A DNA stretch of 64,000 nucleotides from Agaricus subrufescens (taxonomy: Eukaryota > Basidiomycota > Agaricomycetes > Agaricales > Agaricaceae). The stretch covers positions 62,001-126,000 of the forward strand of contig JAQOTE010000025.1 of the NCBI GenBank assembly GCA_029945375.1, written 5' to 3'. Of this stretch, positions 3,762 to 45,615 are shown piece by piece. A model generated the notes under the pieces. It did no database searches and was not told the DNA's origin. It saw only the letters and a list, made by a program, of their open reading frames with translations. Within the stretch, counting starts at the first letter, position 1; each line of letters starts with the position of its first letter. The translations under genes and the position numbers were made by a program.

Positions 3762-6700
3762 TCACCTGACTATTCTACTAATGTCTTTATGAATTTTAAC
3801 ATAAGGAACAATATGATAACTGTTCCCACATTTATCTCCTGCAAAAAAAGCAACTTGGCCATTGAAAACTGCTCCACATATAAGCACAGGAAGATCTGGT
3901 GATTCTTGCAAAAACAGTTTTGTCTGATTATCCATAAACTTGAGAAATGGAATGAAAAGATTATTTACAAACTGCAGTTCATGAATTGAGTTACTTACAT
4001 GCTGAACCAGGAATTGTAGAAGAGGAAATGATGAGTCACAGACCCCAGGTCACCAACAGATGGACTTACCCACTGATTTCCAGGAATTGTGGAAAAGGAA
4101 ATGATGAGCCACAGACCCCAGGTCACTGACAAATGGACTTACAGGCTGATCCAGGAATTGTAGTAGAGGAAATGATGAGCCACAGACCCCAGGTCACTAA
4201 CAAATGGACTTACAAACTGATCCAGGAATTGTGGAAAAGGAAATGATGAGTCACAGACCCCAGGTCACCAACAGATGGACTTACTAGCTGATCCAAGGAT
4301 TGTTGAAAAGGAAATGGTGAGTCAGAGTCACCAACAGATGGACTTACATACTGATCCAGGAGTTGTGAAAGAGGAAATGATGAGTCACAGATCCCAAGTC
4401 ACCAACTGATAGACTTACCATCTGGTCCAGGAATTATGGAACAGAAATAATGAGCCACATACCCAGGTCACCAACAGATGGACTTACATACTGATCCAGG
4501 AGTTGTGAAAGAGGAAATGATGAGTCACAGATCCCAAGTCACCAACTGATAGACTTACCATCTGGTCCAGGAATTATGGAACAGAAATAATGAGCCACAT
4601 ACCCAGGTCACCAACAGATGGACTTACATACTGATCCAGGAGTTGTGAAAGAGGAAATGATGAGTCACAGATCCCAAGTCACCAACTGATAGACTTACCA
4701 TCTGGTCCAGGAATTATGGAACAGAAATGGTGAGTCATAAATCCCAGTTCACTAACAGATGAACTTACAGGCTGATCCAGAAATTGTGGAAGAGAAATTA
4801 ATGAGCCACAGACCCTAGGTCAACAAAAGATAGACTTACATTCTAATCCAGGAATTGTGGAAGAGAAATTGTTAAGCCACAGGCCCCAGGTCACCAAAAG
4901 ATGGACTTACAGGCTAATCCAGGAATTGTGGAAGAGAAATTGATGAGCCACAGACCCCAGGTCACCAACAGATGGACTTACAGACTAACCCAGGAATTGT
5001 GGAAAAGAAATGATAAGTCACTGATCCCAGGTTACCAACAAATGAACTTACATCCTGATCCAGGAATGATGGAAGAGGAAGATGAGTCACTGATTCCAAG
5101 TCACCAACAGATAGACTTACATCCTGATCCAGGAATTGTGGAAGAGAAAATGGTCAGTCACAGACCATGCCTTAGTAACTGACATACTTACCTTTACAAC
5201 TGTATAATTTTCATTATTGTCATAGTCAATATTCAGGTCTTTCAAATGGACCTTCTTAAACATGTCACTATTACCAGCCATGTGTGGATATTCCTGTAGC
5301 AATAGTGAGAGTGTGAAACACTTGATTTTATGTATGATATTACCCCCCAAGTTTCGAATGCTCGTTTAACAAATGAAAATATGATGTCAGGACATCGAGC
5401 GAGGGGACCATGGTTGTACTTCCATAGATGAATCATGTTAATGTTTTGTAAGGAGTTTAAAAACTCATTGTGCTTTCGCTGGGACTCCGACGTGACCCCT
5501 CCACGAGCCTCATGCCTCTCAACCATCTGATTCACTAGTGCTTGACCCATATCCTCGAGAATGCTTGTGGTGAATAGCGTAGCGTCTTTTTCTGAGATTC
5601 CTTGTATTTTGTTTTTAAACGAACTAGTACCAGAGGCTGAACACCAATATGAGCATTCTCTAAACATGATCATCAGCATACCCAAACATACCAGTATTCT
5701 CCCCAAAATATGTATACCACAAGTTGAGATAGCCCAATAGTGCGTCGACCTCTACATCATGCACATCAATATAGAACTCTCCTGATCTTTGTGCGTCTGT
5801 CAAGTAGTCGGGGAAAGAAGCGTGTAAGAAGGTCAATGGTGTTGTGTGTGCTTCTTCCCAAGGCGGTATCCTAAGTGTCGATATACATTTCGTGAGAGCA
5901 GGATAGACTTGATGAAGCCCTAGCTGGAGAATCACGGCCATGCCTCTGAGAGTTCTAGATCCTGACCAAGGGGAAAGCCCTAAAGCAGTGTCGCTGCGGA
6001 ATGACAATGCCAGGCCAAGCAAGAGTTTTGTTATGGGTAACAACTCAGGTGGGATTCTCAAGAGAATCTCCCTATACAAGTTATCGAGATGCCTGAAAGG
6101 CTGCTCCGTACTCGGAACATTCTTCGAACCATCAATAGCGGATAAGACACGATCGAGTCGTGAGATAGGATTAGAGTGATCAGGATCTTTGATGAAACGA
6201 ATCGCAGTTTGCGCAAAAATGAAGTGGCCAGAGGAAGCAGCAGCTAGTCTGGCGAGGACAGCATTTCCAGGCCAATCATCCGAGGTAGGGCCAGGAAATT
6301 CGTCTCGTATAGTGCGGAAGCTGTCAACCAAGAAGCGTCGAACATCATCACGAGCATCCGGGGCATCGATGAAGATAGAGTGTGACTCAAACTGGCCTTG
6401 TATAGAGGCCTCTTTGAACGTGTTGGTTATATGGAGCTCCGGACGACTCGCGATAATCCACGCGAGGGGCGCATCACGATGCTCCCGTGTAAACTTGCTA
6501 ATGATTCGGATAATGTCCCGTTGCGGGTCCACACCCTCGACCTCGTCAAGTCCATCCAGTAAGATGGCCACGGGTGGCCCACCCGCTCCAATCTTCCTCA
6601 TTACGAATGGCTCGGTGATGAAGGCCTGGAATTGAGTGTTCATATTTTTCATGAAAATGTCGGGGTTGATAGTGATTAGGTCCACGATATAGTTCCGGTA

Positions 6701-7485
6701 GGCCTCAATACGATGAGCGAGTTGATTCGCGATAGTAACGAGGATACGGTTTGGGTCATCACGATTGTTTGGTCGCGAAACAAACACAGAAACGACGCGA
6801 TCCCCAATTTCTTCCGCAAAGGTTTGCATAATGGCAGTTTTGCCGACCCCAGCAGGCCCACTCAGCAGGAAAAGGGATTTCAAGCGGGAGATGTCGTTGA
6901 ACCAGGTAAGGAGTAATTCCAGAATTGCTTCACGTGTGCCGGGATGACATCTGGGAGAGTATTGGCGTGAAGAATCATCATGAGCTGCACCATCGATGAT
7001 ATACTTTAGAAGCAATCCCATAGCTAGGGATAAGACAAGACGAATCGGTAGAATTCTCGAGTAGATGACATAGCGATCCTCACCATAGCGTATTTTATCC
7101 TCTCCTGGAGTTTCCATCATGATGGAATTAGTTATAGTGAAGTTGTGGGCTCCGGAGAAGAGGCTGCCGGAACCAGGGAGAACTGCGACAATCATGAACG
7201 GCTGATTATCGTGAAAGCATACAAAGAAATGCACCTTGCATGTGCGGAGAAGCCATGGCGAGGCCTTGGGAAACGGATTGAGGGACTACGTCTGTTGTAG
7301 ACATCGGGTGGAGGGCCTGAAGAGGGCCTGATGCGACGATAAGCTATGACTGTACCTTCAAGCACAAAGAGCATAAGCATACCAGAGGTTGCCGAGTCAG
7401 ACATAGCAGAGCTTCCAGACCCAGATTGATCGATCGTGTTGCCAATACGCCTTCGTTTAGTTTGCCTGGACTCGGGGGGCGGCAT
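3762..7485 (-). CDS. NACHT-domain NTPase (NLR-like), copy 1
   Basis: A STAND-type NTPase of the large agaricomycete NACHT family, which is implicated in non-self recognition and programmed cell death by homology only. The model has six exons: 7383-7485, 7235-7327, 5692-7182, 5344-5636, 5192-5293 and 3762-4001. All phases agree, giving about 773 aa. The N terminus has a basic KRRR stretch, then the family signature FSGAHNFTI before PRCHPGTR, Walker A GPAGVGKTA and Walker B ILLDGLDEV, followed by an ASRPE sensor-like motif. No WD40, ankyrin or TPR repeats are visible downstream. The last two exons lie in AT-rich sequence and flank the micro-exon minisatellite. They could instead be a separate small gene starting at the ATG at 5279-5281. 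The first four exons are well supported; the tail is tentative. Confidence 0.75.
4002..5191 (-). repeat. Intron minisatellite with a codon between splice sites in every unit
   Basis: About 17 tandem units, mostly 71-73 bp. Three copies of a 140-bp dimer cover about 4341-4735. Read on the minus strand, every unit ends in a pyrimidine-AG acceptor, followed by exactly 3 nt, then GTAAGT, the same donor that closes the upstream exon at 5192. The 3-nt cores sit at 5121-5123, 5052-5054, 4982-4984, 4911-4913, 4840-4842, 4769-4771, 4699-4701, 4628-4630, 4559-4561, 4488-4490, 4419-4421, 4348-4350, 4285-4287, 4214-4216, 4143-4145, 4070-4072 and 3999-4001. They read D D S P N P M Y M Y M Y L F P W H, with no stop. 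The final triplet is the first codon of the last exon, which itself contains GTAAGT three bases in. Confidence 0.85.
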
Positions 7486-13988: not shown

Positions 13989-16169
13989 CTAGAAAGAGTA
14001 TACAAAATCAGGATGTTTATCACCCAGCTCTATCCAAGCTCTCAAAGACGCATCTGCATCTTTTTCGTTTCCATCCATATATGGTGCAAGTATCTTCTCC
14101 CGGTTTTGTCGCTTGCTCTGGTTTTTGTAATGGAGGACTGCAACGTTGACAGCGGCCAGAGCAATTATGAACGATTGGCTGCAAAACAACCACGGAGAGA
14201 AAGAGGAAGGGGGATGTGCTTTTTTAGTAACTGAGAGGGTGATTGTGTTATGGGTGATGACTTACAAAGAGATATCTAATATCGTTGTTTTTCTAAATCT
14301 TGGTCCCTCTTTAGTCGGGAAAAGCCATGTACTCAGAATACCGCCCTGGTGAAAATTCGATGTTTTAATGCGTGGCTCATTTAAGGAAAGGAAAGAGGGA
14401 CGCACAGAATTAGTTGCAATGAAGCCAAAAGCTATGCTTGAAGCACGTCGATAGTATGGTTCCGAGTTATTAGCCATCCATGCCGAAGCCACCGGGGCGG
14501 CGGCGTATGCTCCCGGAATAGTGAGGAACAGTGATCCATAAGCTACAAATTTATCGGTTGTTTCTTTTGATTGATTAGAGAGAAGATTTATCCAAGTCAG
14601 TTGGAATTCGAGCACAAAAAAGAGGTGGAACGTACTGAGATACATGACGAAACCGGCCACACCGAGACTCGCAATTATTGCAGTCGGGACAGCACGATTT
14701 TGGTATTTATCAGAGAAATAAGCGGTAACAAGGGTTACTATATTTGCAAGAATTGATCGAAGCAGCTCTGCAGATAGAGAGACAAGGCATACCAAGAAAT
14801 CCAGCAGCAAATGGTCCAACGCTCAACAACTGACTCTTGACAGCACTAAACCCTAACTGCTTCACAATCGAAGGTGCAAAATTAGCCAATCCATAAAGCG
14901 TCGTTCCATCGAAGAATAACATGATGAACATGATTATGACCTGGATTGACGTCATGGAACGGAAGATCTCGCGTACGGAGAACTTGTCAGAGGGAATGTT
15001 GGGAGTAACGGATGGACGGTCATATTCGAGCCGGAATTTGATCAGGTCTTTCTGGTGTTGGGTTAAAAATCTGGAGTCTTGAGGCGTCGCAGGGACGAGG
15101 AAGTATCCTATAAGACCCATCAAGAACGAAAATAAACCTTCCTGAGGGACAGGTGAGCAGATGTATGGAGAGGGTTGAGTGAGCCACTACTTACGAGAAT
15201 GAAAATCCATGCCCAGCCTGGTTTACCACCTACACCATCCATGTTCTGGATAGCGGCTGCTAATAGTCCTGAAAAAGCCCCCGAAAGCTGGATACATAAA
15301 ATGTTATCTGAATACATATATATTCTTGTGAAAGCAAAAATACGTACTGATGCCGCCGAAAAGAACAGAGCGATACTTAAGAAGAGGAAAATGAGACCAA
15401 GCAAAACTCATCAAGATTCCTAACTGACCGAAGTGACAAGTCGCGCCGAGTGTAGAAACCAGACAGGTAGAGCACTATTCCAGGAAACATGGGACCCTCG
15501 ATGGCTCCTAGAATAGCTCGCACAACCACCAGACCGGCATAAGATGTGACAAGTCCTTTGCATATGATATTAGTATAAGTTTATGCAGGGTTGATGCGAG
15601 TGTGAAGTGAGGAACATACCTTGGAGTGTAACGATTATCCCCCAGATCGTAAGGACGGTGGGCATGAGGATATTGGGCCCGACATATCGCAGGAGAAGAT
15701 TAGATGGCAGCTCGGAGAGGATGTAAGGCCTAACAGGTAAGGTATGACTCAGATGGTCTACAACGGAGAGATTGTACCCTTACACGTAGAGGACGGTGAC
15801 GACGACCTGGTATTGGTGGTCGGTAAGACCCAAACCTGCTTGCAAACCTGCAACACGCGCATTACCTACAGAAAGACGTTTGAAATCAAACACTAAATTT
15901 CGCATTACAGTTCCTCTCACCGATGTTGGAGCGATCCTGAAATTGTGAACTGTTATGAACATATTTTATATAGGTTAGAAAGACATGCAACCTACCAGGA
16001 ATGAAAGAAAATAGAACATCGTCATCACAGGGAGGACCGTATAGTCCAGTTTACGGACAGCTCGTTTTTCATCGTCGGACACAGCTCTTGACTCTCGAAA
16101 GAGGCTAGCGCCTCCGTACACAGAGGAAGAGTCGTCCTTGACGTTGTTGGGGACGGTGCCCTCAACCAT
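13989..16169 (-). CDS. MFS anion:cation symporter (Dal5/TNA1-like), copy 1
   Basis: A 12-TM permease of the ACS family, whose fungal members carry allantoate, nicotinate, pantothenate and related organic anions. The substrate cannot be told from sequence. It has many exons with short introns: 15996-16169 holds the acidic cytoplasmic N terminus and start of TM1, a 16-nt exon at 15921-15936 encodes DRSNI, and 15784-15865 holds NARVAGLQ. Family motifs include PGIVLYLSGFYTRRDL and GWAWIFILEGL. The last exon encodes the cytoplasmic tail ending GDKHPDFVYSF. No break was seen. Two close paralogues lie at 52661-54820 and 55453-57627 in the same orientation. The start was set at the first ATG of the conserved N terminus. 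Confidence 0.88.
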
Positions 16170-25392: not shown

Positions 25393-28300
25393 TTACTGCG
25401 CAAAGAATTCCATGCCAAGCAATTTTCGGATTCGTTCAAACTTGACCTTATCTAAATTTTTGGTAAAGATGTCGGCCGGGTTTTTGGTTCCATCAATCCA
25501 ACAAAGATCGATTTTCCCATCTTCCACATATTGACGGACAATGTGAATTTTCACGTCGATATGTTTTGAACGTTGTTCTTGAACTGGGTTTGAGGCCCAG
25601 AAGATCGAACCTTCATTGTCAGCAGACAATTTAGGAGGGAAGACATCGAGTCCTGCTTCAGTAAGGAGCTGGTGCATCCAAACAAGTTGCTTGGAGCAAT
25701 TGGACAGCGCCATATACTCTGCTTCTGTAGAAGAAGCGGCAACGGTCTTCTGTTTTCTGCTTAACCAGGATACACACCCGGAAGCTAGTGTAACATAGTT
25801 ACCAGTAACCGATTTGCGATCGGTGGGATCTTGAGCCCAGTCTGAGTCCGAGAAGGCATGCAGACCTTTATTTGATGTGCCATTGAACACGATGCGATAC
25901 TTGCGAGTAGCAAGGAGATAACGGAGGACCCAAAGGCCTGCTTCGAAATGCTCTTCTGCAGGGTTGGCACACTGTTGGCTCAGCTTAACAACAGCATAAG
26001 CGATATCTGGTCGGGAACTGATCATCAGATACATCAAAGATCCCACTAGTTGTTGGTAGCGGGTCCAAAGAGCCGGGTTGACAGGTTCACTATTGGGTAG
26101 GAACACGAAACCAGACTTGAGGGGGGTTTCAGTCGGCTTAGAAGCGACGTTGAACTTCTCAAGGATCTTATCGAGATAATCGACTTGATCGAGAAAGATT
26201 CTCCTGTTCTTTCTGTCACGCGTGATTTTCATCCCTAGGAATTCTTTACATTCGCCAAGGTCACGGCATTCCCATTTCTTCATAAAGCGATTCTTCAAGT
26301 CTGTAAAGAGCTTGGTTCGCTTGCCAATTAAGGCAACGTCATCAACATAGACTAATGCAATGATAAGTTGCTTTGTCTTTGGACAACGGTAAGTATAAAC
26401 ACCAGCATCTGATTGACAGCGCTTAAAGCCTAATTCCTTCATGGACACAGTCAACTCGCGCCACCAGGCCAAGCCAGCTTGTTTCAGTCCGTAAAGGGCA
26501 CGGTGTAGTTTCCACACTTTCCTTTCAGATCCTTTTAATCGGAATCCTTCAGGTTGCTCCATGTAGATTTCTTCATCCAGTTTACCATATAGGTACGCGG
26601 TTTTGACATCAACGCTTTAAATCTCCCAATCCTCGAGTGCGGCAACACCGAGTAGGAGACGTGCGGTTTCATACCAGACCACGGGAGAAAATAGCTCATC
26701 GAAGTCAACGCCTTCGATCTGGGAGAAACCTTTAGCCACGAGTCGAGCACGTTTTCGGCCATCGGACTTCGTGTTAAACACCCATCGATTCTTAATGGCT
26801 CTGCGACCTTTCGGGAGATCCATAAGTTTGTATACTCCTCGCTTTTTTAGGGCTTGGAGCTCCTCCACACATGCAGCGATCCAATCTTTGCGATCATCGG
26901 GAGAGAGATCTGCAAGGTCTTTGAACATGACCGGAGTCTTGCCTTTTTTGACTGCAGCTGCGATTAGTGTTTCGATAAATTCGAGTCCCCCCTCATGTAC
27001 AAGACGTTGTATATCCTCCATATGATCCGAAGGTGGCTGGCTTCTCTGGGTTGGTTCCGGAGATTGGTTGCCAGATGGAGGAGTATCAGGGGCCAATTCT
27101 GGCTCGACTGATGGTACCGGTCCGTTACGGTTCCATTTAGGTGCTCTATCAAATTCCCGTGCCCGTTGTTCTCGCCAGGGGAACCTTTGCCTTAGACGGT
27201 CTTCCTGAGGGCCGATTACATCTTTGGCAGGCGGGTAGGGTTTTCGAATATCTCGTTCGTTCGGTTGGCGTTCAGATTCGCCGGTAGCTCTAATTTTATC
27301 CAATAGACCTTCTAAGTCCTTTTGGAGATCCTTGACAGGATCAGAGCGATCACCGTAAACGTTATCTTTCCGCATTGGTGCACGTCGTTCGCGACCAGAT
27401 CTCCTCGGATTTCCACTGCTTGGCCCGGGTTCGGGTGCAGGTGGTTGAGGAGGCGCAGGCGGAGGCGACCTTTGCGGGGATGGAGCACGACTTGGGGTTC
27501 TGGGTCTGGAGGGACCCGAACTCGGTGTAGACGGTCCGTGAGGGGGTTTAGGAGGCGTAGGTGGTAAGGGTTTAGGATCAAACCCATAACCATATGGAGC
27601 AGGAGGTGAATCTCCGCTATTATCAGATTCATCGTCATTATTTGTTGACGGAGGTGCCTTAGGGTAACCACGTGGATCTGTTTTGGGACATTTTGAGAAA
27701 TAGTCCTCCTCGAAAATGGCGGAAGGGGAGACGAACAATGCGTTATTTTTAGTATGCCTTATGAATTGATAGTTCGCTCCTCCAGAGGAGTAGCCCACAA
27801 AAATCATCAACTCGGACCGAGGAGATAATTTGTTTGCACGTTTCTCTTCGGGTATGAAGACATACGCTCCACAGCCAAATACCCTGAGGTTGTTAATCTC
27901 GGGTTTTTTACCACACCATTTTTCATATGGTGATTTCCATTCGAGACGTCGCATGGGCGTGCGGTTATAAACGTGCACTGCGCATTGTATAGCGAACTCC
28001 CAGTAAGAATCAGGGAAGCATGCATGTTGTAGCATGGCTCTTGCTTTATCGAGCAAGGTTCGATTTAATCTCTCAGCGCGACCGTTTTGTTGGTGCGCGT
28101 GAGGAGCGGTTGTCTCGTGTATTATTCCATTCGAGTTAAAGAAATTTGTCATGTCTGAGGACATGTATTCGCCACCATTATCAGTTCTAACGCGTTTAAC
28201 TGAAGTATTGTGCTGATTTTTTATCATCGCAACAAAGTCCTTCAGCGCTTTGAATGCGTCCGACTTATTTCTAAGAAGGGCGATGGTGCCAACTGACGAA

Positions 28301-30369
28301 TAGTCATCTAGGAACGTAATTACCCATTTGTATTTGTGGTACGATTGAGTGGGAAATTCAAGAAGATCCGAGTGGATCAATTCGCCGTAACTAGAAGCTC
28401 GTTTGGAATTTTCCGGGAAGGACTTCTGGTGCTGCTTGCCAAGAGCGCAACCTGGGCATGTCCGTTTCGACCGGGGGAAACCAATTTTGGGTGGTGATTT
28501 CGAGGAGTTCGGTACTCTTTTCAGAGCTTCGTCAGAGACGTGACCGAACCTTTGATGCCAGATCTCGTAAGACGGATCGTGGACAGATCGGTTCACTGTG
28601 CCAACTTGTTTGAAGACACATGTGAACACGTAGTGTAGATTACTACCACAACATCCACCAGTCGCTGTAGCAGTGAGGATGGGTTTCCCTTTTGGGTCGT
28701 ACAGGGTTGTACATTTGTCGTTGCCGATCACAGTCGCACCATTTTGTAAGAATGTGTTGGTGGATAGGATCCGGCCCCCCATGCCGGCGACATAAGCTAC
28801 CGGTGAGATTGTTGAAGTCAATAAGGTGACTTCACCCGTTTTTGGGTCAACGACTTCATGCTCGAACATGACGGTTCCACGAGCGGTTATTGGAAGGATC
28901 TTATCCGCTTCAGCAGTTCCGACTATTCCGAAATTTCCCTTTTCGTACTCGACAAAGTCATCAAGGTCGCATGTGAAGTGGCACGATGCGCCTGAGTCGA
29001 GGAGCCATTCGGTCGTATAGTTGGGGTTTGCAGGCTGCTTACCCCTGCATTTAGAACACTCATTGTCACTCTTTTGCTCGGTGCTAGTGGAAGCGACGCA
29101 TGCATATAATTGGGAACTACTTAATACAGGCTGATCTACATGTATAGGGTCGGAGATCCAGCACTGAAGTTCCTGATTAGTATCAACCCGATTAGGGGAT
29201 TCATGAGTGACATACCGGGAGGATCCGATAGAGACCGAATCGTCCTCCATTCCGGAGGGTTCGTATTCTTCGATCACTGCATCGACGGGATCGATCTCCA
29301 TCTCGGTCGCTTTTTCAGCGAGCTCTTTGTCTTTTTGAGCGATTATTTGCGCCTTAGCCGTTTCAAAGCGTCCAATTGGATAAGGACGGAATGCTGGGCG
29401 AGGGCGAGGGTCAGATGTGACCTGATGAGAAAGACGAGCTGCGAGGGGGATCCCAGAGTGTAAAACAGCGGGGGATGCAAATTGAGTGCACGATTGTGCC
29501 GAGTACTCTTCTATGCCAGTAGTAGGCGCCAGATCAGCTTGTTTAGCGGTCTGGTTGTCCTTGCGTTTGCCGCGGCGAGTTTTCTTCTTTGGCTGATCCG
29601 AGTTTTGGTTATTCCCGGATTGCTGCTGCTGTTGCTGCTGCTGCTTTTGGCTGTGAGGCTTTTGCTGCTGCTGCTTCTGCTGCTGCTGGTTGTGTCCACC
29701 TTGCGGTTTCCACTGCGGAGCGTTGTTGTTCCGCTTAATGCCAGAGAAGCGGTTCGCTTGAACCTGGGCGTTCTTGCGCTGATTGAATTCGGTGAGGATT
29801 GCAGCGCGAACGGCCTGATAAGTCACATCGGTAACCGAGGACTTGGCGGCAAGGAAGGAGGATGCGATGTTCCAATTATTCGGAACAGATCTGAGAAGAG
29901 TCATCGCACGGACTAGTGCGGGAATATTGACTCCGGCGGTTTCAAGACGATTGTAGATCAACTCAAGTTGGGCGATTTCTGCTGATGGATCTTTCGATCC
30001 AGAAATCGAGAATCCCAGGGTCTGCTGGTACATCGCGTAGATGCCAGCCGGCCCGGCTGTGCCATAAGTGTTCTCGAGGGCGACCCAGAGATCACGAATG
30101 CCAGTATACTGAATGGTGATTAGCCCTTCAGAGATACGGCAGTGCATAGCAGCTATGGCAAGCTTTTGAGTATGAGCTCTTCTCCTGACTTCGTCAGCAT
30201 CCGTAGTGGCTACGACGGTGTCATCGATCATATCCAGAGCGGAGGCATCGCTCAATGGATCTTGGAGAAGTGTCATGATGTTGCGCATACTGCGCTTCCA
30301 AGAGTCATAGTTCTCCGCTCCGGTAAGGACGGGAACAGTGTTGAGAAGGGGGAGTACAGCTGAGGCCAT
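25393..30369 (-). pseudogene. Copia 1 Gag-Pol polyprotein with one in-frame stop
   Basis: A single frame of 1659 codons is interrupted only by TAA at 26617-26619. Order: Gag (start MASAVLPLLNTV), a Gln-rich and basic tract instead of a CCHC knuckle, protease (WLLDSGASCHF), integrase (zinc-binding H..H..C..C, then DNGGEY and HQQNGRAERLNR), a Pro-rich linker, reverse transcriptase (RWVFNTK, YVDD) and RNase H (SDSDWA, STEAEY). The stop falls in RT between the EDWE and VDVKTAY segments. In Copia 2 the corresponding site codes for sense residues. Also in RT, PVVRYETA has become PVVWYETA. Otherwise complete, so this copy is recently inactivated unless the stop is suppressed. Confidence 0.93.
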
Positions 30370-30605
30370 TGATTCGAGTGTCTGCGTGAAACACGATCAG
30401 TATCGAGCATAGCACGGAGTGCACTGCGTCAGATAGGCTGAAGCTCCTTCTCGCCTGCGGAGGGGATGTAGACCATGAACGGGGAAGGTGCTTGGTGTAG
30501 CACACTTCAAACAAAGGCGGGGTGAGGCCTCGATACATCGTTCAGGTAGGTCGATCAACCCTTTCAACATCGTGCAACGTGGGTGCACAGAGTGAACAGG
30601 CGATC

Positions 30606-31357: not shown

Positions 31358-31404
31358 AAAAAGAATTAAAATTCCATCAAATAATCGTCTTTATACTTAT
31401 TTAA

Positions 31405-32526
31405 ATGTCTCGACATGAATCCCGGTCATCATCATTCGATCAAACCACCCAAAGAGAAAATTTTAGAAACGAGCGGGGAGAGGAAAACGCTGGAGGAACG
31501 TCTCGATCTCCGGGGACGGCTACCATTGATACAACGTCTATCGGATCGTCCGGGCGAACAGAGCGAGATGAATTGCAACACGCCCTCGAGGTTATCTGCC
31601 TCGGGTACCTTGGAGGAGAGATTGAAAGAGGAGAAGCAATTCTTCAAGGATCTATCAAAATCTCCGGATCCAACTTGTCCGCCGAAGTTAAACAAAAATT
31701 CCAACAATTCCTCCTCGAAGCTACCGATAAAGGAAAAGGAGTCGATGAAACAGGAAATGGAGATGGTGAAGGAGGAAGAAGAAGCCTGTTGGAAAGATTT
31801 GCTGGATTGGAGGAGGGAGAAAGAGGTGTTGAAGGAAATATTGAAGAAGATGGAAGAGAAAGAACAGGTGATGGAAGGAAAGTTGAAGAACCTAGGGAAA
31901 ATGAAGATGGAGGAAGGAAACGGATTAGAGAGGAGGATTTACCGTGGTTCGAAAGTCTGGAAAAATCCAAAATACGAATCACCGACGAAATGCGGGAAAG
32001 CCGAAAGCTCTTACGGAAATATAGGGACGACGTCGAAATGGTCGTCCAGTCCATCCAATCAGCCCCCAAGAGTCCCGTCAATTTCCCAGTATCCGAATGG
32101 AAAAACATCGTCCGAGGACGACCCGTTAATCTTAACGTTGTCCACGCAAATTTCCATGCTTTTAAACCTGTGCCAGAGAGCATTGGAAGGGTGGGACCAT
32201 TCGAAATTAGAGGCGAAGTTGGAGAGGTCTCGAAACGCATTGAAACGTCCGCGGACTGGCTCTCCGCCTGGAATAGGACTGCCCAAGCGACCGAGGTTGC
32301 TTTCCCGCATAGAGGGCCAGAGCTTCGAGGATACACGGAACGAATTTGGGACCATTTCAGCTCCATTGCACTCCCGTATCACGGGCGAGTCTTCCTCTAT
32401 GATGAAGCAGTTAGGGGAAGTGTTCGAGGAGGAGAATCACTTTCCTTATGCGATGACATCGCTTTCCAGCGGCTCTACACCGCGTATATCTCCCCCATTG
32501 GCTCCGAAATCTCAGTTCAACCCTGA
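31405..32526 (+). CDS. Ngaro Gag, with a premature TGA before its zinc fingers
   Basis: A 373-aa frame with a low-complexity charged N-terminal half and a basidiomycete Ngaro Gag-like block (ADWLSAWNRTAQATEVAFPHR, ELRGYTERIWDHF, YDEAVRGSVR). The same frame continues beyond the TGA at 32524-32526 to a TAG at 32683-32685 and encodes a CCCH-type cysteine cluster (CRGFNRQGC, CRYRHICEVCGDSKHG). The codon context suggests CGA to TGA decay. The overlapping +1 frame (from 31415) is also open but looks like an antisense-free shadow over this segment. Confidence 0.75.
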   Translation: MSRHESRSSSFDQTTQRENFRNERGEENAGGTSRSPGTATIDTTSIGSSGRTERDELQHALEVICLGYLGGEIERGEAILQGSIKISGSNLSAEVKQKFQQFLLEATDKGKGVDETGNGDGEGGRRSLLERFAGLEEGERGVEGNIEEDGRERTGDGRKVEEPRENEDGGRKRIREEDLPWFESLEKSKIRITDEMRESRKLLRKYRDDVEMVVQSIQSAPKSPVNFPVSEWKNIVRGRPVNLNVVHANFHAFKPVPESIGRVGPFEIRGEVGEVSKRIETSADWLSAWNRTAQATEVAFPHRGPELRGYTERIWDHFSSIALPYHGRVFLYDEAVRGSVRGGESLSLCDDIAFQRLYTAYISPIGSEISVQP

Positions 32527-34492
32527 AAGAAAGCCAAATACGACAAGGCTTGTCGAGGCTTCAATAGGCAGGGGTGTTCCGCCAACAAGTGCCGGTATCG
32601 TCACATCTGCGAAGTTTGCGGCGATTCCAAACACGGACGAGTGGGATGTACTAAGGGAAAGTTGGGGAACGATGGTCAAGCCTAGATATCTTCGCTTTAA
32701 CTGTTGGGATGTAGAGGGGAAACCGCTTCCCAGGGTGGTGGACTGGTCTATCAGGGCTGAACCACTTCCGAGAGCTCCCGACTTATCGCAAGACGATCCT
32801 GTTGTTCGCTTGCTGTCAAATCATTCAAATCTTTTCAAAATTGTTACACCTGTCAATATCAATGTTTTTCGATCGTACCTGACCCAACATCCAAATCAAA
32901 TTTTTTGCGAATCAGTTTGTAGAGGTTTAGAGGAGGGGTTTTGGCCCTGGGCGGAAGTAAACAAAGAAGGTTATCCGGTTACACATGATGAAAAAAGGGA
33001 GGTAGTGAGAGAAAAGGAGAAAATGGAGTTCATTCGCCGACAACGAGATTTAGAGGTAGAAAAGGGGAGGTTTTCGACTTCGTTTGGCAGGGAGTTGTTG
33101 GTGGGGATGTATGGCGTACCTACGTTTGCAGTGCCGAAGGAGGGGACATCCAAGTTTCGCCTCGTTACAGATCAAAGTGCCGGGAAATTTTCTGTCAACA
33201 GTATGCAGTCGTCGCACTGCGCCGCATTCCCTATGGACAATATGGTCCAATTGGGCGAAAGGATTTTACGCTTACAACGATCTCTGAAAAAGGGAGAGAA
33301 ACTCATTCTATTCAAGAGTGATGTTGCTGAAGCTTACCGTTTACTACCAATGCACCCTATCTGGCAGACGAAACAAGTTAACACGGTTGATGGCGAGAGA
33401 TATGTTGATCGAAACAACGTGTTTGGAGGAAGGCGATCGGGAGATACTTTCATCGCGTTCATGTCGCTGGTCCTATGGGTGGCTGAAACTCAGTGGAAAA
33501 TTCCTAATCTTTGTGGATATGTTGATGACGTTTTCAGCGTCACCCATGACTGTGATATGCAATTTTACGAACCTTATGGTATATCGATGCCGAAGAACCA
33601 GGCCCGATTACTGCAATGCTGGGACGCATTAGGAATCCCCCATAAAAAAGAAAAGCAAAGCAGCGGTAGCAGATTGGCTATCATCGGGTTTGAAGTAGAT
33701 GTTGAGAATTTTACGATTTCGCTGGGGGATGAAAAGAGGAAGAGACTTTTAGATGAACTTGATCGTTTCATTATCAGGAAGGATAAAGGGACTCAACGTA
33801 AACGGTTTATCCTGAAGGAGTTCCTGCGGCTCGCTGGATGGATGACTTGGGCATTCAACATCTATCCATACCTTCGACCTTCTCTGTGTCACCTCTATCA
33901 CAAAGTGGGGCCACTGAAACGAAAGGAGGCGTTAGTTTGCATGAACAGAGTCATCTCCAGAGAGTTAGAGTGGGCTGAACATTACATCCAAAGCTCCCCG
34001 GCAATCCTCTTCCTTCGTGAATATCAATGGTCGCTCGAAAAGGCTGATTTCAAAATCTTCTCCGATGCATCTGGAATAGGACTTGGGTTTTGGTATCCGG
34101 AACTAAATGAAGGATTTGAATCTGGCTTACCTCCAAATATCCCTTCCAATATTTTCTTCAGCGAGGGCCTTGCGATCGTGAGCGCACTCGAACATGTTGC
34201 CAAAAAGCGGTCGGGAACAAAGGTGGCCATTTACACCGATAACGAATCCTCATTTCGGGTCTTCTCTTCATTTCATGCCGTCCCAGAATACAATCCTATC
34301 CTTTTGCTCGCAGCCGAACTAGTTCTGGAGTTCAAATTGCAACTTCGCGTTGTCTGGACGTCTGGAAAGAAAAACGGAGTCGCTGACGCGTTGTCACGTC
34401 ACAACCGTGACAAAGCCGTTTCACTAGCCCCGAACATCTCAATTTCTTACTTCTCTCCTCCTCATGCCGCGTGGGCCAATCAGCCATCCTAA
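31415..34492 (+). CDS. Ngaro reverse transcriptase-RNase H
   Basis: An open frame of 1025 codons. The recognisable Pol begins around 32630. RT: FAVPKEGTSKFRLVTDQS, LFKSDVAEAYRLLPMHP and the active site CGYVDDVFSV. RNase H: IFSDASGIGLGFW, AIYTDNES and a C-terminal VADALSRH. The frame is intact to its stop, and its last 29 nt overlap the recombinase gene. The residues before about 400 share DNA with Gag in another frame, so the true start is uncertain (internal initiation or frameshift). No methyltransferase or protease domain was recognised. Confidence 0.88.
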   Translation: MNPGHHHSIKPPKEKILETSGERKTLEERLDLRGRLPLIQRLSDRPGEQSEMNCNTPSRLSASGTLEERLKEEKQFFKDLSKSPDPTCPPKLNKNSNNSSSKLPIKEKESMKQEMEMVKEEEEACWKDLLDWRREKEVLKEILKKMEEKEQVMEGKLKNLGKMKMEEGNGLERRIYRGSKVWKNPKYESPTKCGKAESSYGNIGTTSKWSSSPSNQPPRVPSISQYPNGKTSSEDDPLILTLSTQISMLLNLCQRALEGWDHSKLEAKLERSRNALKRPRTGSPPGIGLPKRPRLLSRIEGQSFEDTRNEFGTISAPLHSRITGESSSMMKQLGEVFEEENHFPYAMTSLSSGSTPRISPPLAPKSQFNPERKPNTTRLVEASIGRGVPPTSAGIVTSAKFAAIPNTDEWDVLRESWGTMVKPRYLRFNCWDVEGKPLPRVVDWSIRAEPLPRAPDLSQDDPVVRLLSNHSNLFKIVTPVNINVFRSYLTQHPNQIFCESVCRGLEEGFWPWAEVNKEGYPVTHDEKREVVREKEKMEFIRRQRDLEVEKGRFSTSFGRELLVGMYGVPTFAVPKEGTSKFRLVTDQSAGKFSVNSMQSSHCAAFPMDNMVQLGERILRLQRSLKKGEKLILFKSDVAEAYRLLPMHPIWQTKQVNTVDGERYVDRNNVFGGRRSGDTFIAFMSLVLWVAETQWKIPNLCGYVDDVFSVTHDCDMQFYEPYGISMPKNQARLLQCWDALGIPHKKEKQSSGSRLAIIGFEVDVENFTISLGDEKRKRLLDELDRFIIRKDKGTQRKRFILKEFLRLAGWMTWAFNIYPYLRPSLCHLYHKVGPLKRKEALVCMNRVISRELEWAEHYIQSSPAILFLREYQWSLEKADFKIFSDASGIGLGFWYPELNEGFESGLPPNIPSNIFFSEGLAIVSALEHVAKKRSGTKVAIYTDNESSFRVFSSFHAVPEYNPILLLAAELVLEFKLQLRVVWTSGKKNGVADALSRHNRDKAVSLAPNISISYFSPPHAAWANQPS

Positions 34493-35432
34493 ACCAACGG
34501 CATCTCCTTCTCAGCTTACCAAGTTACTGGTCGAGGCCCTCGAAAATGCCTGGGATCCCTCGACCAAAAAAGTATATAAATCTCATTTACGTTCCTACTT
34601 GTCCTTTGTCCACAAACATAAAATCGAAGTTAAACCAAACGAAACCACGCTTGCGCTGTACGTTGTATATATGAATCAATTCATTAAACCGTCCTCTGTC
34701 GAATCCTATCTTACTGGGATTGTTCATTATCTGGAGCCATTCTACCCAGGTACCATGAACCACAGAAATTCGACAATCGTTCGACAGGCTTTGCGTGGTT
34801 GCAAAAAGTCGAAGGGATCGCCGATACACCGTAAAGATGCCCTATCACGCGACCAACTCGAATCAATTGCATTCGACTACTACCTCTCCACCAATTTTGA
34901 CGACATTCTTTTCTTTGCGATGCTGCTAGTTGGGTTTTTCGGATTACTTCGGTTAGGGGAGTTGGTCTACCCTGATGATGTTGAACTTAGAGAACCGAGG
35001 AAAATGATCCACCGTAACTCCATCAAACTTTCGCCTTCAATCCTCGAATTTGAATTACCCTTCCACAAAGCGGACCGATTCTATCAAGGTAATCGTGTCC
35101 TAATCCCACCCAAACACTTCCCTTGTAACCCCATTCGTGCCGTTGCACGGTATCTCTTTTTCCGAGATCAACGTTTCGCAAACAAACAGAATCTCTGGAT
35201 AACGGACAAAGGAGATGAACCCACTCGTCGTTGGTTTCTTACAAGACTCAACAAATTCAACTTCAAAAATATAGCCGGGCACTCTCTTCGAGCAGGAGGA
35301 GCAACCGAATTAGCAAAACAAGGAACACCCTTGCATATCATTCAGGCGATCGGGAGATGGTCGTCTGACACATTTCAATCTTACATTCGCCTACATCCTA
35401 CATTACTACAAGAATATATCAAAAACAAATGA
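34464..35432 (+). CDS. Ngaro tyrosine recombinase
   Basis: A 322-aa phage-integrase-family enzyme that integrates the circular DNA form of YR retrotransposons. An N-terminal SAM-like domain (YKSHLRSYLSFVHKH) precedes the catalytic domain, with Arg I in GLLRLGELVY, HxxR in GHSLRAGGATELA, Trp/His II position in AIGRWSSDTF and the nucleophile Tyr in SYIRLHP. All catalytic residues are present and the frame is intact. It starts inside the end of the RT frame, typical of compact YR elements. Confidence 0.93.
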   Translation: MPRGPISHPKPTASPSQLTKLLVEALENAWDPSTKKVYKSHLRSYLSFVHKHKIEVKPNETTLALYVVYMNQFIKPSSVESYLTGIVHYLEPFYPGTMNHRNSTIVRQALRGCKKSKGSPIHRKDALSRDQLESIAFDYYLSTNFDDILFFAMLLVGFFGLLRLGELVYPDDVELREPRKMIHRNSIKLSPSILEFELPFHKADRFYQGNRVLIPPKHFPCNPIRAVARYLFFRDQRFANKQNLWITDKGDEPTRRWFLTRLNKFNFKNIAGHSLRAGGATELAKQGTPLHIIQAIGRWSSDTFQSYIRLHPTLLQEYIKNK

Positions 35433-35907: not shown

Positions 35908-38900
35908 CTACTGTTCACGCAATCCTAACATAGGGCAGAACATATTAAACTTGATTTTCTTGAGATTTTTGGTCATGATGTCAGCAGGATTTTCTTGACC
36001 ATCAATCCAGTCAATTTTGATCCGCTTTTCCTCAAGAAGGTTCTGAATATAGTGAAAGCAAATATCAATATGTTTAGATCGCTTTTCTTGGACTTCTGAG
36101 GTGGCCCAAAATAGGCTTCCCAAATTATCTCCATAGAGAAGGGGTGTGTCAATATCAAAACCTACTTCGGTAAGAAGTTGGGACATCCAGACAAGTTGTC
36201 ATGAACAATCAGAGAGAGCCATATATTTGGCTTCCGTTGATGAAAGTGCAACAGTTTTTTGTTTGCGACTCAACCAAGATACTGGACCATCAGTGAGTGT
36301 GCAAAAGTTGCCGGTGATTGATTTCTGGTCTTCGGGATCAGATGCCCAATCAGAATCTGAATAAGCAATTATACCAGAATTCGAGTTACCATCAAACTCA
36401 AGAACTCTATTTTTGGTACTGTTGAGATACCGTAGCAAATGCATTCCAGTGGTATAATGTTCCTTGTTAGGTTTTACCATCTGTTGCGATAATTTTACAA
36501 CCGCAAATGCAATGTCTGGTCGAGATCCGATCATAAGATACATCAAAGGATCCAACTAATTGCTGGTATTTTTGCCTGAATTCAGGTTTAGGCATTTTGT
36601 CGGAAGTAGAGAACACAAAACCTTTCGGTAATGGTGTTTCTTCAGATCCAGATTTGATTCCGAATCGATCAGTACTTTCTGAAGGTACTTCTGCTGATGC
36701 AGAAAGACTTTTCGACGAGGTCTATCTCTAGAGATTTGCATCCCGAGGAACTCAGTCATTTCGCCTTGATCACGACATTCCCATTTGGTAGAAAACTTTA
36801 GCTTCAACTCTTGGAGGAGCTTAGAATTCTTTTTGCCTAAAAAGGCTACATCATCAACATAAACTACAGCGATAACTAATTTGCGAGTTTTAGGATGTCG
36901 ATAATAATATATGCCTGCATCGGACTTACATCAGATAAAACCGATTCCTGTCATACTAGTGGTGAGTTCTTTCCACCAGCTTAGTCCGGCTTGTTTAAGG
37001 CCATATAGGGCACGGCGTAATCTCCAGACTTTATTTTCCTTTCCAGGAACTCTAAATCCTTCTGGTTGTAACATATAGATTTCTTCATCCAGTTTGCCAT
37101 AGAGATAGGCAGTTTTAACGTCAACACTGAACATATCCCAATCTTCCATGGCAACTACGCCAAAAAGAAGATGAGCAGTTTCGTAGCGGACTACTGGAGA
37201 GAATAATTTGTTATAGTCAATTCCCTCAACTTGAGAGAATCCTTTGGCAACCAGTCGAGCCTGAAGGCGACCATCATTCTTCTCGTTAAACACCCATCTA
37301 TTTTTAATGGTTCTTCGACCTTTCGGGAGATCCACTAATTCATAGACACCTCTTTGTTGTAAGGCTTTTAATTCCTCTAAACAGGCATCAATCCATTTTT
37401 TGCGCGTTGCCGCAGGCAATTGTGACAAGTCCTTGAATTGGACTGGTGTTTGGATTTTGTTTGCAAGTTCGAAGAGAAAGTTATTTAACCTTACTCCTCC
37501 TTCTCTGAGAAGAACTTGAATATCCTCCATTCGATCATCGTCGTCATCCTCCTCCTGGTTTGGAGTAGGGCGTGATCCGAATTGTACGGGAGGTATTTCA
37601 GTGCCATGTTCTTTTTCCCAATCTTCAGCCCTTTGTTGGGCTTCATCAAATCGTCGGCAAATTTCTTTGCGATGTTCAGTGACGTCATCATTAGGAAGTC
37701 TGGCTTTCTGACAATCAGATCTAGAAGGAGCTCTATTTCTGATCTGTTCATCTATTTCAGGTAAGAAGGGTTGTTTCTCATAATCCCAAAGAATCTTAGT
37801 TGGTGGTTTATTGCCATAGACATTATCTGGACGGTTAGGAACTTGAGATTCTCTTTCCGATCGTCGGAGTGGAGGTCTTTCAGATTCATCAGGCGGTGAT
37901 TCTGCACGCCTTTTTCCTCTATTCCATTGTGGCTTTTCCTGTTGTGGAATTTGCTGTGGTCTGGAGGGACCGGGTGATGGAGGAGGTGATCTCTGTGGTG
38001 ATGCCGGAGGATCAGGTGGATTATGAGGAGGTTGCTGCGGTACAGCAGGTGGAGGACCCGGTGGAGGGTCACAAGGATGTGAAGGACTAGGTAAGTCTGG
38101 AGTTTCATCACTTGTTTCGTCAGGGGATGAATCCCTGGAAGGTTCCTCATCTATTTGTTTTTTGAGGTTACTTGTTTTAGATGACGAACATTTAGGAAAA
38201 TATGATTTGTCAAATATGGCATGTGGGCTGATAAACACAGCATTATTTTTAGTGTGTCTAATGAACTTGTAATTCGTGCCGTCATAGCCAACGAATAACA
38301 TAAGTTCAGAACGTGCAGAGAGTTTATCCTGTCAGATCTCATCTGGTAAATACACGTGTGCACCACATCCAAATACTCGGATTAAGGACAGATTTGGTTT
38401 GGTTCCGAAGAACAGTTTGAATGGTGTTTTCCATTTTAACTGTTGCATTGGAGTGCAATTATAGATATAAACTGCATATGACATAGAGAATTCCCAATAA
38501 GAATCCGGGAGGCATGCCTGCAACCGTAATGCTTGTGATTTCTCGTGCAAGGTTCTATTAAGTCGTTCTGCACAACCGTTCTGTTGATGAACGTGGGGTG
38601 ACGACATTTCATGCTGAATTCCGTTTGCTGCTAGATATTCTTTTAGAACTCCGCTAGTGTATTCTCCTCCTCGATCAGTGCGTAGTCGCACGACTTTCTG
38701 GCCTGTAGAAGTAGCCAAGAATGTCAAGATGTTTTTCATCTGATTTGGAGCTTCGCTTTTCTTGGATAGCGTGACAATGAAGGCGACACCGGAGTAGTTG
38801 TCCATTATAGTCATAATCCATTTATAGCAATGATATGATAACACCGGTAGTTCGAATAGGTCAGAATGAACCAGTTCAAGAATCTTTTTGCACGGCTTTC

Positions 38901-39677: not shown

Positions 39678-40197
39678 TGTTATAGTGACCCCAGCCCAGT
39701 CCTAAGCTGGGGCGATACGTCACTACCGATAACACAGTTACTGATAGAGCATATCAAAGGAGCCTTCTTGGTTGAATGGAGATTCAACTTCAAAGGTAAT
39801 AATACTGAGACGATTATACAAGCAAGAGAGGGAGCTTAGCAATTAAGACTTATAGGTTCTAGAGCTTTAGATAAAGGCTTAGTATTAGTCTCCACCTAAC
39901 CAAGTAGAAACATTGTTTCTACATGGTCGAGTTGAGGGGTTTATATACTACAGCAAGTATCTACTTATGTAATACTAATAAGAGTCATATCCAGTCATAA
40001 CTAGTCATAATAAGTCATATCAAGTCATATAAGTTCTTCAAGTCATTATAAGTCAGAATGACTCATGACTGTGAGTCGGAAGATTCTTGACTTTGCTGAC
40101 TAAGAAATATTACATAAGAAAAGAGAAACAATATTCGATACAATTACATCAGCAAAGGTAGGCATATTAGATAAGAAAAGAAATTGAAATCATAACA
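39678..40197 (-). repeat. Gypsy 3' LTR
   Basis: 520 bp, tgttatag...cataaca. Differs from the 5' LTR at scattered sites, several of them CpG to TpG/CpA (for example aaacgttg in the 5' LTR is aaacattg here). Confidence 0.93.
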
Positions 40198-41509: not shown

Positions 41510-44500
41510 TCATTGACCGATGTCTGTTGCTGGTAAGTTTCTGGTTCTTTTATACTCTTTAAGTGCCTCTTTTGCATTTTCCAAGTCATTTTTGATTTCC
41601 CAAGAATCCTCAGTTGGACCATAGCCTTTCCATCTGACTAGGTATTCTGTAGTCATTCTGAGTTGATTGTTGACTCCACGCTTTCTTCTGACTCGATGAT
41701 TAATAATAGCTTCTACTTCATATTCTTCTTCTCCTGACACTAGTATTGGTGGGGGTTCTAGATTATGTTTCCCATAAATGTCATTCTCTGTGACTGGTGT
41801 TAGCAATGATGCATGAAATCTGTTATGAATTTTCCATCTATCTGGGAGTTTTAATTCATAGACTACAGGAGAGATCTTTCTTGTTATGGTGAAGGGACCT
41901 TCTCGTCGTTGGTTGAGTTTCTTTGACTCATATGGTACTGGGAGATTTCTATTATCTAGCCATACTCTGTCTCCTATTTTGAATGGATTCCATGGTCTAT
42001 TCTTTCTGTTAGCCATTTTGAGTCGTGCTTGTTCATGAGCTTCTAATGCTGCTTCTCTTGCTTGTTCTAAGAATAGTGTCTTTTCTTCGATAGAAGGTAT
42101 GTTTGATTCTTCTTCGTTGATGAATGCTTGGGGATTGTATCCTAATATTAGTTCTGATGGTGTATGTTGTCTTCCTGAATGTGGTTTAGTGTTATGTACA
42201 AATTCAATCATCGGTATAGCTCTTTTCCAGTTGTTTGGATTTTTAGAAGTGTAAACTGCGAGATAGAATTCGATTTCTTGATTGTATCATTCTGTCGTTC
42301 CATCTGTTTGTGGATGATATGCCGTTGAGAATGCTGGTGCTATATTTAGCTTTTCATAAGTTTCTGTTTCATAGATTTGGCTGCAAAACGAGGGTCTCTG
42401 TCTGAAATAATCTTTTGGGGGGTGCCGTATTTAGAAAACACTTTTTTGATAAGAATTTCAGCTATATCATCAGCTGTAGCTGTTTTTCGAGTAGCTGTAA
42501 GGATTATCCCTTTCGTAAGTCCATGGTCCACTATGGACAATATTGAATCATATGATCTGTCCAGTGGTAGATCCGTGATGAGATCCATGGATATTTGTGT
42601 AAAGGGTTTAGTTGATCCTGGTCCCGAAATAGGTTGTATGGGTGGTTTGGTAGGATGTTGGTTAATTTTGTACTGTTGACAAATGGGGCAACCTTTGACA
42701 TAGTTTTGGACATAGGTTCCCATTCCTGGCCAGTATAATTCTTTAGTGAGTTTTCTCAAGGTTTCTGTTATTCCTGGGTGTCCTGATGACTCATGGTCAT
42801 GTGCATTTATTAAGATTTGCTTCTTAATTATCGGGTTGTCTGGAATAACTATTCTTCCTTGGTATTTGTGGAAATTGTCTTCCTCATTTTCGGTATATCT
42901 GTCTGATAATGTGACTAGAGATTTGTCATTGTTAATTTGAGTCATTAATTCTTCTGTCAAGAAGTTAATGAAGTTCTCGGGGGGTAAAGCGGTGATATTT
43001 TTGTTGTCTTTCCCTTCTGGGACTAGGTCTGGTCTTCTGCTGAGTGCATCAGCCAGTTTATTTTTGGTTCCTGCTAAGTGTTTTATGACATAGTTGAATC
43101 GAGTCATGTATAGTGTCCATCGGGCTTGGCGGCGATTCAACTGTTGTGGTTTCCTCCATCTAGTAAGATTTTCGTGATCTGACCAAATGGTGACTGGATG
43201 GTTTGATCCTTCTAAATAGTGTCTCCATTCCTTTAGCGCTCTGATGATTGCTAGGAATTCTTGGTCTGAAACATGATAGTTTCTTTCAGCTGCGTTTAAT
43301 GCTTGGCTGAAATAGGCAACTGGATGTTTATCTCCGTTGGTGTCCCTTTGAAGTAGTACTGCTCCGGTTGCATATGCTGATGAGTCACATTTGATCTCGA
43401 ATGGTTTATTTTGATCTGCTATTTGGAGTATTGGTCATTCAAGGAATTGTAATTTCAGGTTTTCAAATGCTGTTTGTACATTTGAATTCCATTCGAATTT
43501 TGTGGTTTTCTTGGTTAATTGGTATAGAGGTTGTGCAATATGAGCATAATTCTTGATGAATTTGTGATAAAAGTTGCAGAATCCTAAGAATTGTCTGACG
43601 TTCTTGACTGTTTTTGGAGTAGGCCAGTCAGAAATTCCATTGAGTTTGGTTGATTCCATCTCGATTGAGTCATGAGTAATGACAACTCCAAGGTATTCTA
43701 GTCGATCTTTCTCGAATTCGCATTTTTCTGTCTTTAGATAGAGTTTGTTTCTTTGAAGTATTTTTAGAACTAGTAGAGTCAATTCGTGTAATCGTTGTTT
43801 TGAATCAGCATGAATCAGTATGTTGTCCATGTAGATTATGACTCCTCCTGAGTCAATGAGGTCCTTATATATGGAGTTCATCATGGACTGGAATATTGCT
43901 GGTGAATTGGTCATTCCAAAGAACATAACCGTGGGTTCATAGAATCCTTGCAGTGTTCTGAAGGCAGCTTTCCATTTGTCTCCTTGACGTATTCTGTTAA
44001 GACTACGACCGCAGAGTCGGAACTAGGCGGTTCCAATTTGGAGATAGGTGTTGGCCTCAGCGACGTGAAGGCGCACTGTGCCCTCCAGCGGGTTCCGGAT
44101 GCCTAGAGAGCGATAGCGGAATAGAACACGAGTTGCGGAACGCTTAGCGGGAAGATAGGAATCGAGAGGGAATAGAATCTAAGTCGATTTCCAGACTGAG
44201 GAATAGATACAGGATTGCGGAACCTATATACGAAGGTATACAGGAGTAAATTACGGAAAAGGAATAGTTCCGGAAAATAGAAATAGGAATCGGAATAGAG
44301 ATATAGCAGTCGCATCGCATTAGGAATGAGTACCGATCCGGATACAGTCGCGTTGGCCGTTGGAAAGTTACGGCCTGTGTTGCGTTGGTCGTAGAGCGAC
44401 CGCGGGAGCGCAACCGTAGTTCCGGAAAGGGAACTACGGCATAACCGGCCAACCACTACCGGTTCCGGGAAGCGGACTTACCAGTTAAAGGAACCCGAAA

Positions 44501-45600: not shown

Positions 45601-45615
45601 GATCTTCAGAGGTAA

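Follow-up and report, generated by a model that had tools for sequence, protein, structure and literature searches.

In the truffle Tuber melanosporum, the NACHT-ANK (nank) family of receptor genes is diversified by alternative splicing of tens of 3-bp microexons, according to Iotti et al. (2012, Fungal Biology 116:261-275) as cited in PMC4986451, PMC10197012, PMC9815663 and PMC3689799. In Podospora anserina, the NWD genes het-d, het-e and het-r exchange near-identical repeats, and diversifying selection acts on four codon positions of each repeat (PMC1805685, PMC4986451). Very short exons are also reported for Arabidopsis APC11 (1 nt) and Drosophila homothorax (3 bp; PMC7392893). Here we analyze a stretch of 64,000 nt from the mushroom Agaricus subrufescens (assembly GCA_029945375.1, contig JAQOTE010000025.1, positions 62,001 to 126,000; called the window below), whose minus strand carries at 5191-3999 a tandem array that, judged by frame and phase, is inside a NACHT receptor (NLR) gene. 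The best reading of this locus is a basidiomycete version of the one-codon microexon arrays already reported for truffle receptors. Very probably, the gene encodes an NLR with a hypervariable loop (4-31 residues among the copies) that is spliced from one-codon exons under diversifying selection.

The truffle family, as the citing papers summarize it, is an expanded NACHT NLR family with tens of codon-sized microexons and a diversified C-terminal recognition part. The window gene resembles it, by DNA anatomy alone, in being a NACHT gene with 17 codon-sized microexons, paralogs having 4-31. Tuber is an ascomycete whose proteins carry ankyrin repeats, whereas this basidiomycete gene has no ANK model at E<=1 (a profile miss, not proof of absence); alternative splicing is reported for the truffle genes, whereas the mushroom arrays are known here from their DNA. 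Like the Podospora NWD genes, the A. subrufescens genes are NACHT receptors with near-identical, exchanged repeat units and few fast codons. In Podospora, however, the repeat is a coding WD40 unit, whereas here it would be an intron, with one codon per unit entering the protein. APC11 and homothorax, as reported, indicate that exons of 1-3 nt can be spliced, but these are single exons and not arrays of near-identical units. An earlier note on this DNA had seen no precedent for such an array; the truffle genes, as reported, provide one. In the open literature no basidiomycete array of this sort was found, by title or start of abstract, among the matches listed. The micro-exons of schistosome genes are longer than one codon, and their proteins are not known to be NLRs; by the title of DeMarco et al. 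(2010), these genes too derive protein variation from very short exons.

The features of the gene are as follows, in the direction of transcription.

5692..7285, minus strand: exon 1, open frame with the NACHT/STAND NTPase part (open reading frame, Pfam, gene model); the start given is that of the frame
5637..5691, minus strand: intron A, 55 nt, GT-AG (from frame and splice sites)
5344..5636, minus strand: exon 2, 293 nt (gene model; segment conserved in paralogs)
5294..5343, minus strand: intron B, 50 nt (gene model)
5192..5293, minus strand: exon B, 34 codons, the last of them AAG, in phase 0 at the first array donor (gene model; hhalign to the C-terminal domain of Agaricus bisporus NLRs)
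3999..5191, minus strand: array, 17 units of intron (60-70 nt) plus one codon (unit reading, TRF, pattern search)
5121..5123, minus strand: microexon 1, GAT (D)
5052..5054, minus strand: microexon 2, GAT (D)
4982..4984, minus strand: microexon 3, TCT (S)
4911..4913, minus strand: microexon 4, CCT (P)
4840..4842, minus strand: microexon 5, AAT (N)
4769..4771, minus strand: microexon 6, CCT (P)
4699..4701, minus strand: microexon 7, ATG (M)
4628..4630, minus strand: microexon 8, TAT (Y)
4559..4561, minus strand: microexon 9, ATG (M)
4488..4490, minus strand: microexon 10, TAT (Y)
4419..4421, minus strand: microexon 11, ATG (M)
4348..4350, minus strand: microexon 12, TAT (Y)
4285..4287, minus strand: microexon 13, CTA (L)
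4214..4216, minus strand: microexon 14, TTT (F)
4143..4145, minus strand: microexon 15, CCT (P)
4070..4072, minus strand: microexon 16, TGG (W)
3999..4001, minus strand: microexon 17, CAT (H)
3939..3998, minus strand: last intron, 60 nt, outside the repeat (gene model; paralog comparison)
3762..3938, minus strand: exon C, phase 0, carrying the stop codon (gene model; hhalign)

Between 5191 and 3998 the minus strand holds 18 GTAAGT hexamers, which delimit 17 head-to-tail units, each running from GTAAGT to YAG and a triplet that is followed by the next GTAAGT. Ten of the 17 units are 71 nt long and the rest 63, 69, 69, 69, 70, 70 and 73 nt. TRF reports a single array at 3993-5166 (period 71, 16.7 copies, with period 140 listed as well). 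A three-donor pattern for 3-nt exons, GTAAGT-N50..78-AGNNNGTAAGT-N50..78-AGNNNGTAAGT, has 16 matches in the window, all on the minus strand and all in the array, and none in 100 dinucleotide shuffles; a version for 4-nt exons has no match in the window, and one for 2-nt exons none in 65 loci. The earlier note's sequence observation, about 17 minus-strand units of YAG, non-stop triplet and GTAAGT, is confirmed, as all 17 units fit and no triplet is a stop. Two-unit block duplications are visible, and the three consecutive ATG-TAT pairs are the product of a recent 140-nt duplication, so that the 17 units are not independent observations. In a control on IMG/VR the three-donor pattern had 31 matches, scattered or in repeats, many of them spaced in multiples of three like coding repeats and a few being tandem repeats of 63-81 nt (e.g., L055, L058 and L059); an intron array with a variable triplet was not apparent among these 31 stretches, by eye and with no formal test.

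The earlier note had set the array next to a NACHT gene. Frame and phase place it inside one, since the frame is maintained from the NACHT exon via two small introns, exon B, the array and the last intron to exon C; because frame and phase continue to exon B (5293-5192), the NACHT frame and the array are readable as a single gene. Exon 1 matches NPHP3_N (2.3e-14) and NACHT (3.6e-5; 24.1 bits, under its cut-off of 26.7) in Pfam, and its P-loop STAND/NACHT NTPase core fits a fungal NACHT-type NLR (STAND NTPase). Exons B and C meet the array in phase 0, so that the frame survives whatever the number of 3-nt exons between them. A last exon beginning CATGTAAGT, as formerly proposed, gives way to CAT as microexon 17, the intron at 3998-3939 and then exon C. 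This last intron is 56-61 nt long in all 20 loci having exon C, among the 22 examined; the window copy is open and could be read through, and read-through is impossible in 15 of the 20 (stops or frame).

The paralogs come from a DNA search of the 44.65-Mb genome (44 contigs), which gave 48 matches; 26 stretches were taken and 22 array loci, including that of the window (L029), were analyzed in detail, 18 of them without near-copies. These loci were found by DNA similarity alone, by which copies with unrelated intron sequence would be missed. Non-redundant statistics drop L018, L021, L019 and L030 (near-copies of L017, L013, L009 and L029, respectively), except for one diversity count that kept L030; the counts exclude L010, a partial copy of L033, and L023, a partial copy of L011, and L028 and L034 are short matches only. 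NACHT sequence ends 0.47-0.57 kb upstream of the array in 21 of 22 loci, with an essentially full, stop-free NACHT match in 17. Where exons B and C are both present (17 loci), arrays have 4 to 31 units (L025, whose "exon B" is not real and which is without the upstream part, is excluded). The spacing AG-NNN-GTRRGN is kept at 367 of 380 junctions across the 22 loci, located by a profile on unit interiors to avoid choosing units by their splice sites. That spacing had been offered as a test in other strains; among paralogs of one genome it is largely kept, with 13 junctions broken. L009 also holds a second short array. Among the 120 protein matches listed of 705, the best named match of the predicted window protein is A. 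bisporus P0010 (52% identity over 93% of the query), Macrolepiota, Leucoagaricus and Leucocoprinus stand lower, and metagenome proteins reach 72% identity.

A coding signature is seen in how the unit columns vary. Pooled over 16 arrays, the fraction of minority bases at triplet positions 1, 2 and 3 is 0.486, 0.547 and 0.070, respectively, against 0.060 in intron columns, the column counts omitting units not of the commonest length. Positions 1 and 2 are therefore 8-9 times more variable than the introns and position 3 is intron-like; the ratio of positions 1-2 to the rest ranges from 3.0 to 31 per array, and of 1098 intron columns, 40 are at least as variable as the less variable of positions 1 and 2 in the same array. 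Among same-array pairs of units with identical introns, 118 of 161 differ in the codon, all at positions 1-2. For instance, 40 of 46 such pairs in L012 have different codons; the window gene has only three such pairs, all with the same codon because of the recent duplication. Since the accelerated positions decide most residues and the mostly silent position 3 behaves like the intron, the variation is codon-like, which lends support to the earlier proposal of an in-phase string of 3-nt exons able to vary a protein residue by residue. That note's interpretation is thus partly supported, the one-codon exon string being well supported by comparison. In an ordinary intronic minisatellite no unit position would evolve differently because of coding, and this is not what the arrays show. 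For the same reason it is improbable that 3999-5191 and the last intron are removed in one step as one large intron, with the array a minisatellite that bears leftover splice look-alikes. Full skipping would keep the frame, exons B and C both being in phase 0, the array is plainly a tandem repeat, and A. bisporus relatives have a short loop at the corresponding place; this account would nevertheless leave unexplained the excess diversity at exactly two adjacent in-phase positions, the differing triplets of identical-intron pairs and the invariant branch-site bases described below. In the 72-nt arrays (L012-L017, L020, L022, L024 and L025), intron column 11 is unusually variable, with a mean within-array entropy of 1.05 bits vs 0.52 for the next column.

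A similar pattern is found between copies. Eight locus pairs were compared over 2.5 kb upstream, the array introns and the codon bases, in alignments where units may be misregistered. Divergence in these three parts is 6.0, 3.8 and 36.7% for L013/L016, 4.8, 5.3 and 31.7% for L014/L015, 15.9, 11.1 and 45.1% for L029/L031 and 0.6, 1.1 and 5.0% for L013/L021. The window copy and its counterpart on contig C1 (L029/L030) differ by 0.4, 2.3 and 13.7%, the differing codons, 3 of 17, forming one block. L012/L025 (36.6, 32.6 and 52.0%) is not comparable because L025 is without the upstream part. Codons are faster in six of the eight pairs, the non-comparable one included; one pair, taken up below, has no codon change, and L017/L018 is identical throughout. 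These comparisons also bear on introner-like insertion, in which intron elements would have entered between the codons of an older ordinary exon. Relatives do have ordinary coding sequence at the array's place, and introns are near-identical in some arrays. However, one insertion would be required after every codon, paralogs range from 4 to 31 units, the two-unit block duplications are explained directly by head-to-tail repetition, and the codon series differ despite near-identical introns in L013/L016 and L014/L015, so that this origin is extremely improbable.

Some copies are close enough to raise questions of assembly. L017 (C6:2396500-2406000) and L018 (C6:1840000-1849500) are 99.99% identical over 9.4 kb and lie about 556 kb apart on one contig, and are either a very recent duplication or an assembly duplicate. 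Contig C25, that of the window, shares stretches of 98-99.8% identity with the end of C1, as does C13 with C1 (L029/L030, L023/L011 and L028/L034); C25 may be an alternative haplotype. The array of L029 differs from that of L030.

Splicing signals within the units are consistent with real introns. A T at intron column 36 and an A at column 38 are kept in all 216 unique introns (18 arrays), the next best interior columns being A9 (210/214) and T44 (211/216). Lying 30 nt upstream of the AG, T36 and A38 are readable as the T and the branch A of a site of YTNAY type. A loosely defined branch-like motif, at roughly the distance required, occurs in 283 of 302 introns (65 in shuffles), including all 17 of the window. 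As for the triplets, 317 of 367 are NNT, codons that encode 15 different amino acids and include no stop; none of the 367 is a stop codon, and all 20 amino acids are represented. Some chains began with a false hit lying within exon B or at the first donor (TAA three times, GAG twice, other triplets in a few cases); these hits were removed from the counts, and one AGT at the broken end of L022 stands outside them. AG is absent from all 297 non-redundant triplets, where about 7.2 are expected from base frequencies (2.8 NAG and 4.5 AGN); such absence is expected if a second acceptor just downstream is harmful. The base preceding the donor is T in 317 of 367 microexons and G at the ends of exons 1, 2 and B of the window gene. 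A deficit of T-to-C change at position 3 was considered as a sign of splice constraint and set aside, 1 C in 280 triplets vs 1.5% (81/5424) in introns being too few.

The place of the array in the protein can be approached through A. bisporus. With the array left out, exons B and C of 13 loci align to the C-terminal end of nine A. bisporus NLRs (hhalign probability 97.3%, E 2.7e-11). For the A. bisporus homolog P0034, AlphaFold (mean pLDDT 78; from an alignment of 32 of 120 listed homologs) predicts this end as a small alpha/beta domain with strands at 618-622, 639-645 and 652-657, a helix at 662-678 and strands at 683-687, 695-701 and 712-718. The border of exons B and C falls between strand 652-657 and helix 662-678, in a loop of few residues, and the A. 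bisporus relatives have only this short loop, in ordinary coding sequence, at the array's place. Thus, the array most likely writes a long variable loop of the C-terminal domain. MAFFT alignment of the array peptides with the A. bisporus proteins did not place the insert reliably. Foldseek with the P0034 model gave, in its best 50 rows, nearly all AAA+ or related NTPases in long, poorly superposed alignments; the VIA-align rows cover about residues 82-339 of the model, so that the C-terminal fold was hardly probed. Fungal NACHT-type NLRs carry superstructure-forming repeats (WD40, ANK or TPR) at the C-terminus. Pfam found no family at E<=1 in the 207-aa C-terminal part, including ANK, WD and TPR, which leaves a divergent repeat possible. 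Of 261 candidates in a protein search with the P0034 C-terminus, four were retained, P0034 being one of them, and all four are A. bisporus proteins.

The sequence itself shows the anatomy of the units, their gene context and phase, the codon-position signature, the presence of arrays in many paralogs and the conserved branch site. From these data we infer that the microexons are included in mRNA, that they are joined in order, that they write a loop at the place given above and that this loop takes part in ligand recognition. Each unit would be a short spliceosomal intron plus a one-codon exon. Sequential 5'-to-3' removal of short introns would avoid crowding at a 3-nt exon, because each step would leave a normal long upstream exon. 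Splicing, most simply 5' to 3' as the transcript emerges, would link exon B, 17 single codons and exon C, giving the window copy a 17-residue insert, DDSPNPMYMYMYLFPWH, in the loop of the C-terminal alpha/beta domain. A point change would replace a single residue, and unequal exchange in the near-identical introns would add or remove whole residues with the frame intact; replacement, gain and loss are all frame-safe because every border is in phase 0 and each unit is an intron plus one codon. Diversifying selection on each residue, together with the swapping of units among copies, would make the loop distinct in every paralog, probably for non-self recognition. A version of this reading, compatible with it, is that different subsets of microexons are spliced in different cells and yield many loop variants. 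The window microexons are all 3 nt and in phase 0, so any subset stays in frame, and such splicing is reported for the T. melanosporum NACHT-ANK genes, in the passages of PMC9815663 and PMC10197012 on them. Conversely, the uniform strong donors (GTAAGT) and branch sites look constitutive, on what the DNA suggests of splicing here, and the fast evolution of the codons suggests that their genomic order matters. Combinatorial splicing is therefore a serious possibility, somewhat short of probable.

Several observations weigh against the spliced, selected loop. The L009/L019 introns differ by 3.7% and none of their 45 codon bases does, with 30.9% divergence upstream, where the alignment runs partly over unrelated flank. 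A protein search with the window's C-terminal part, array peptide included, gave no hit at E<=0.001 among 259 candidates. Absence of stops says little by itself, as 2.1 are expected in the 297 non-redundant triplets and 0 seen, and stop avoidance was rejected as a coding test. A stricter branch test at fixed offset finds 135 of 302 introns vs 70 in shuffles, perhaps because unit families differ in where the branch lies. Owing to the common descent of the units, simple probabilities overstate the evidence; shared descent inflates the branch counts, but T36 and A38 exceed other columns of equal descent. The profile that anchors the junctions, like the 216 introns, derives from units first picked by AG/GT, a mild circularity. 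The 13 broken junctions include four in L033 and three in L024; the NACHT of L024 is truncated with a stop, yet that of L033 is open. Finally, the codon changes in identical-intron pairs comprise 45 transversions, 7 transitions and 66 double changes (the pairs are not independent), and single intron differences comprise 89 transversions and 80 transitions.

Transversion-rich and double codon changes are not predicted by plain selection, which leaves room for mutation or exchange aimed at the triplet. The exons would then be real, with triplet-aimed mutation or short-tract exchange of triplets between units supplying the variants and selection acting as a mere filter. The commonest class being double changes and the excess of transversions agree with this, as does the near independence of codon from intron identity (the codon differs in 73% of pairs at intron distance 0 vs 88% at distance >=8). 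However, position 3 is not accelerated, for which selection on residues is the simpler account; no enzyme or template was seen, none having been searched for; and unit shuffling by unequal exchange can uncouple codons from introns. Targeted codon mutation is thus unlikely, and the reading of one-codon exons diversified by selection is preferred.

Elsewhere in the window, a second NACHT-type open frame lies at 59093-60781 on the minus strand (Pfam NPHP3_N 2.4e-14, NACHT 9.2e-8); the window search with the three-donor pattern gave no match near it. At 31385-35432 on the plus strand, long frames resembling a retroelement polyprotein are followed by a 333-aa frame with a weak Phage_integrase match (6.2e-4, below cut-off), an element which we take to be DIRS-type. 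Copia-like and gypsy-like retroelement frames are presumably those at 25393-30396, 36556-38898 and 41510-47798 on the minus strand, from their translations. A 10-bp repeat, AGTCATATCA, occurs at 39983 and 48365, and its copies may mark the two ends of one element. Three similar stretches on the minus strand resemble MFS transporters (14262-15186, 53411-54064 and 55718-57035), the first matching MFS_1 at 2e-5, below its cut-off.

If the favored reading is true, the device described for the truffle, an ascomycete, also occurs in basidiomycete NLRs whose C-terminal domain is of another kind, which points to convergence or else to a general means of diversifying receptors that has been overlooked. 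A bolder form is conceivable though rather doubtful: a second, possibly independently evolved eukaryotic system that builds receptors one residue at a time, with a loop of up to about 31 positions, codons remade far faster than the introns, possibly by triplet-aimed change, and subsets of them maybe combined at splicing. The 22 loci (18 without near-copies) include near-identical pairs that differ in the array, by which mutation, selection and splicing would be separable with long reads. Gene finders likely miss such exons, and the sensor regions of other fungal NLRs may accordingly be misannotated.

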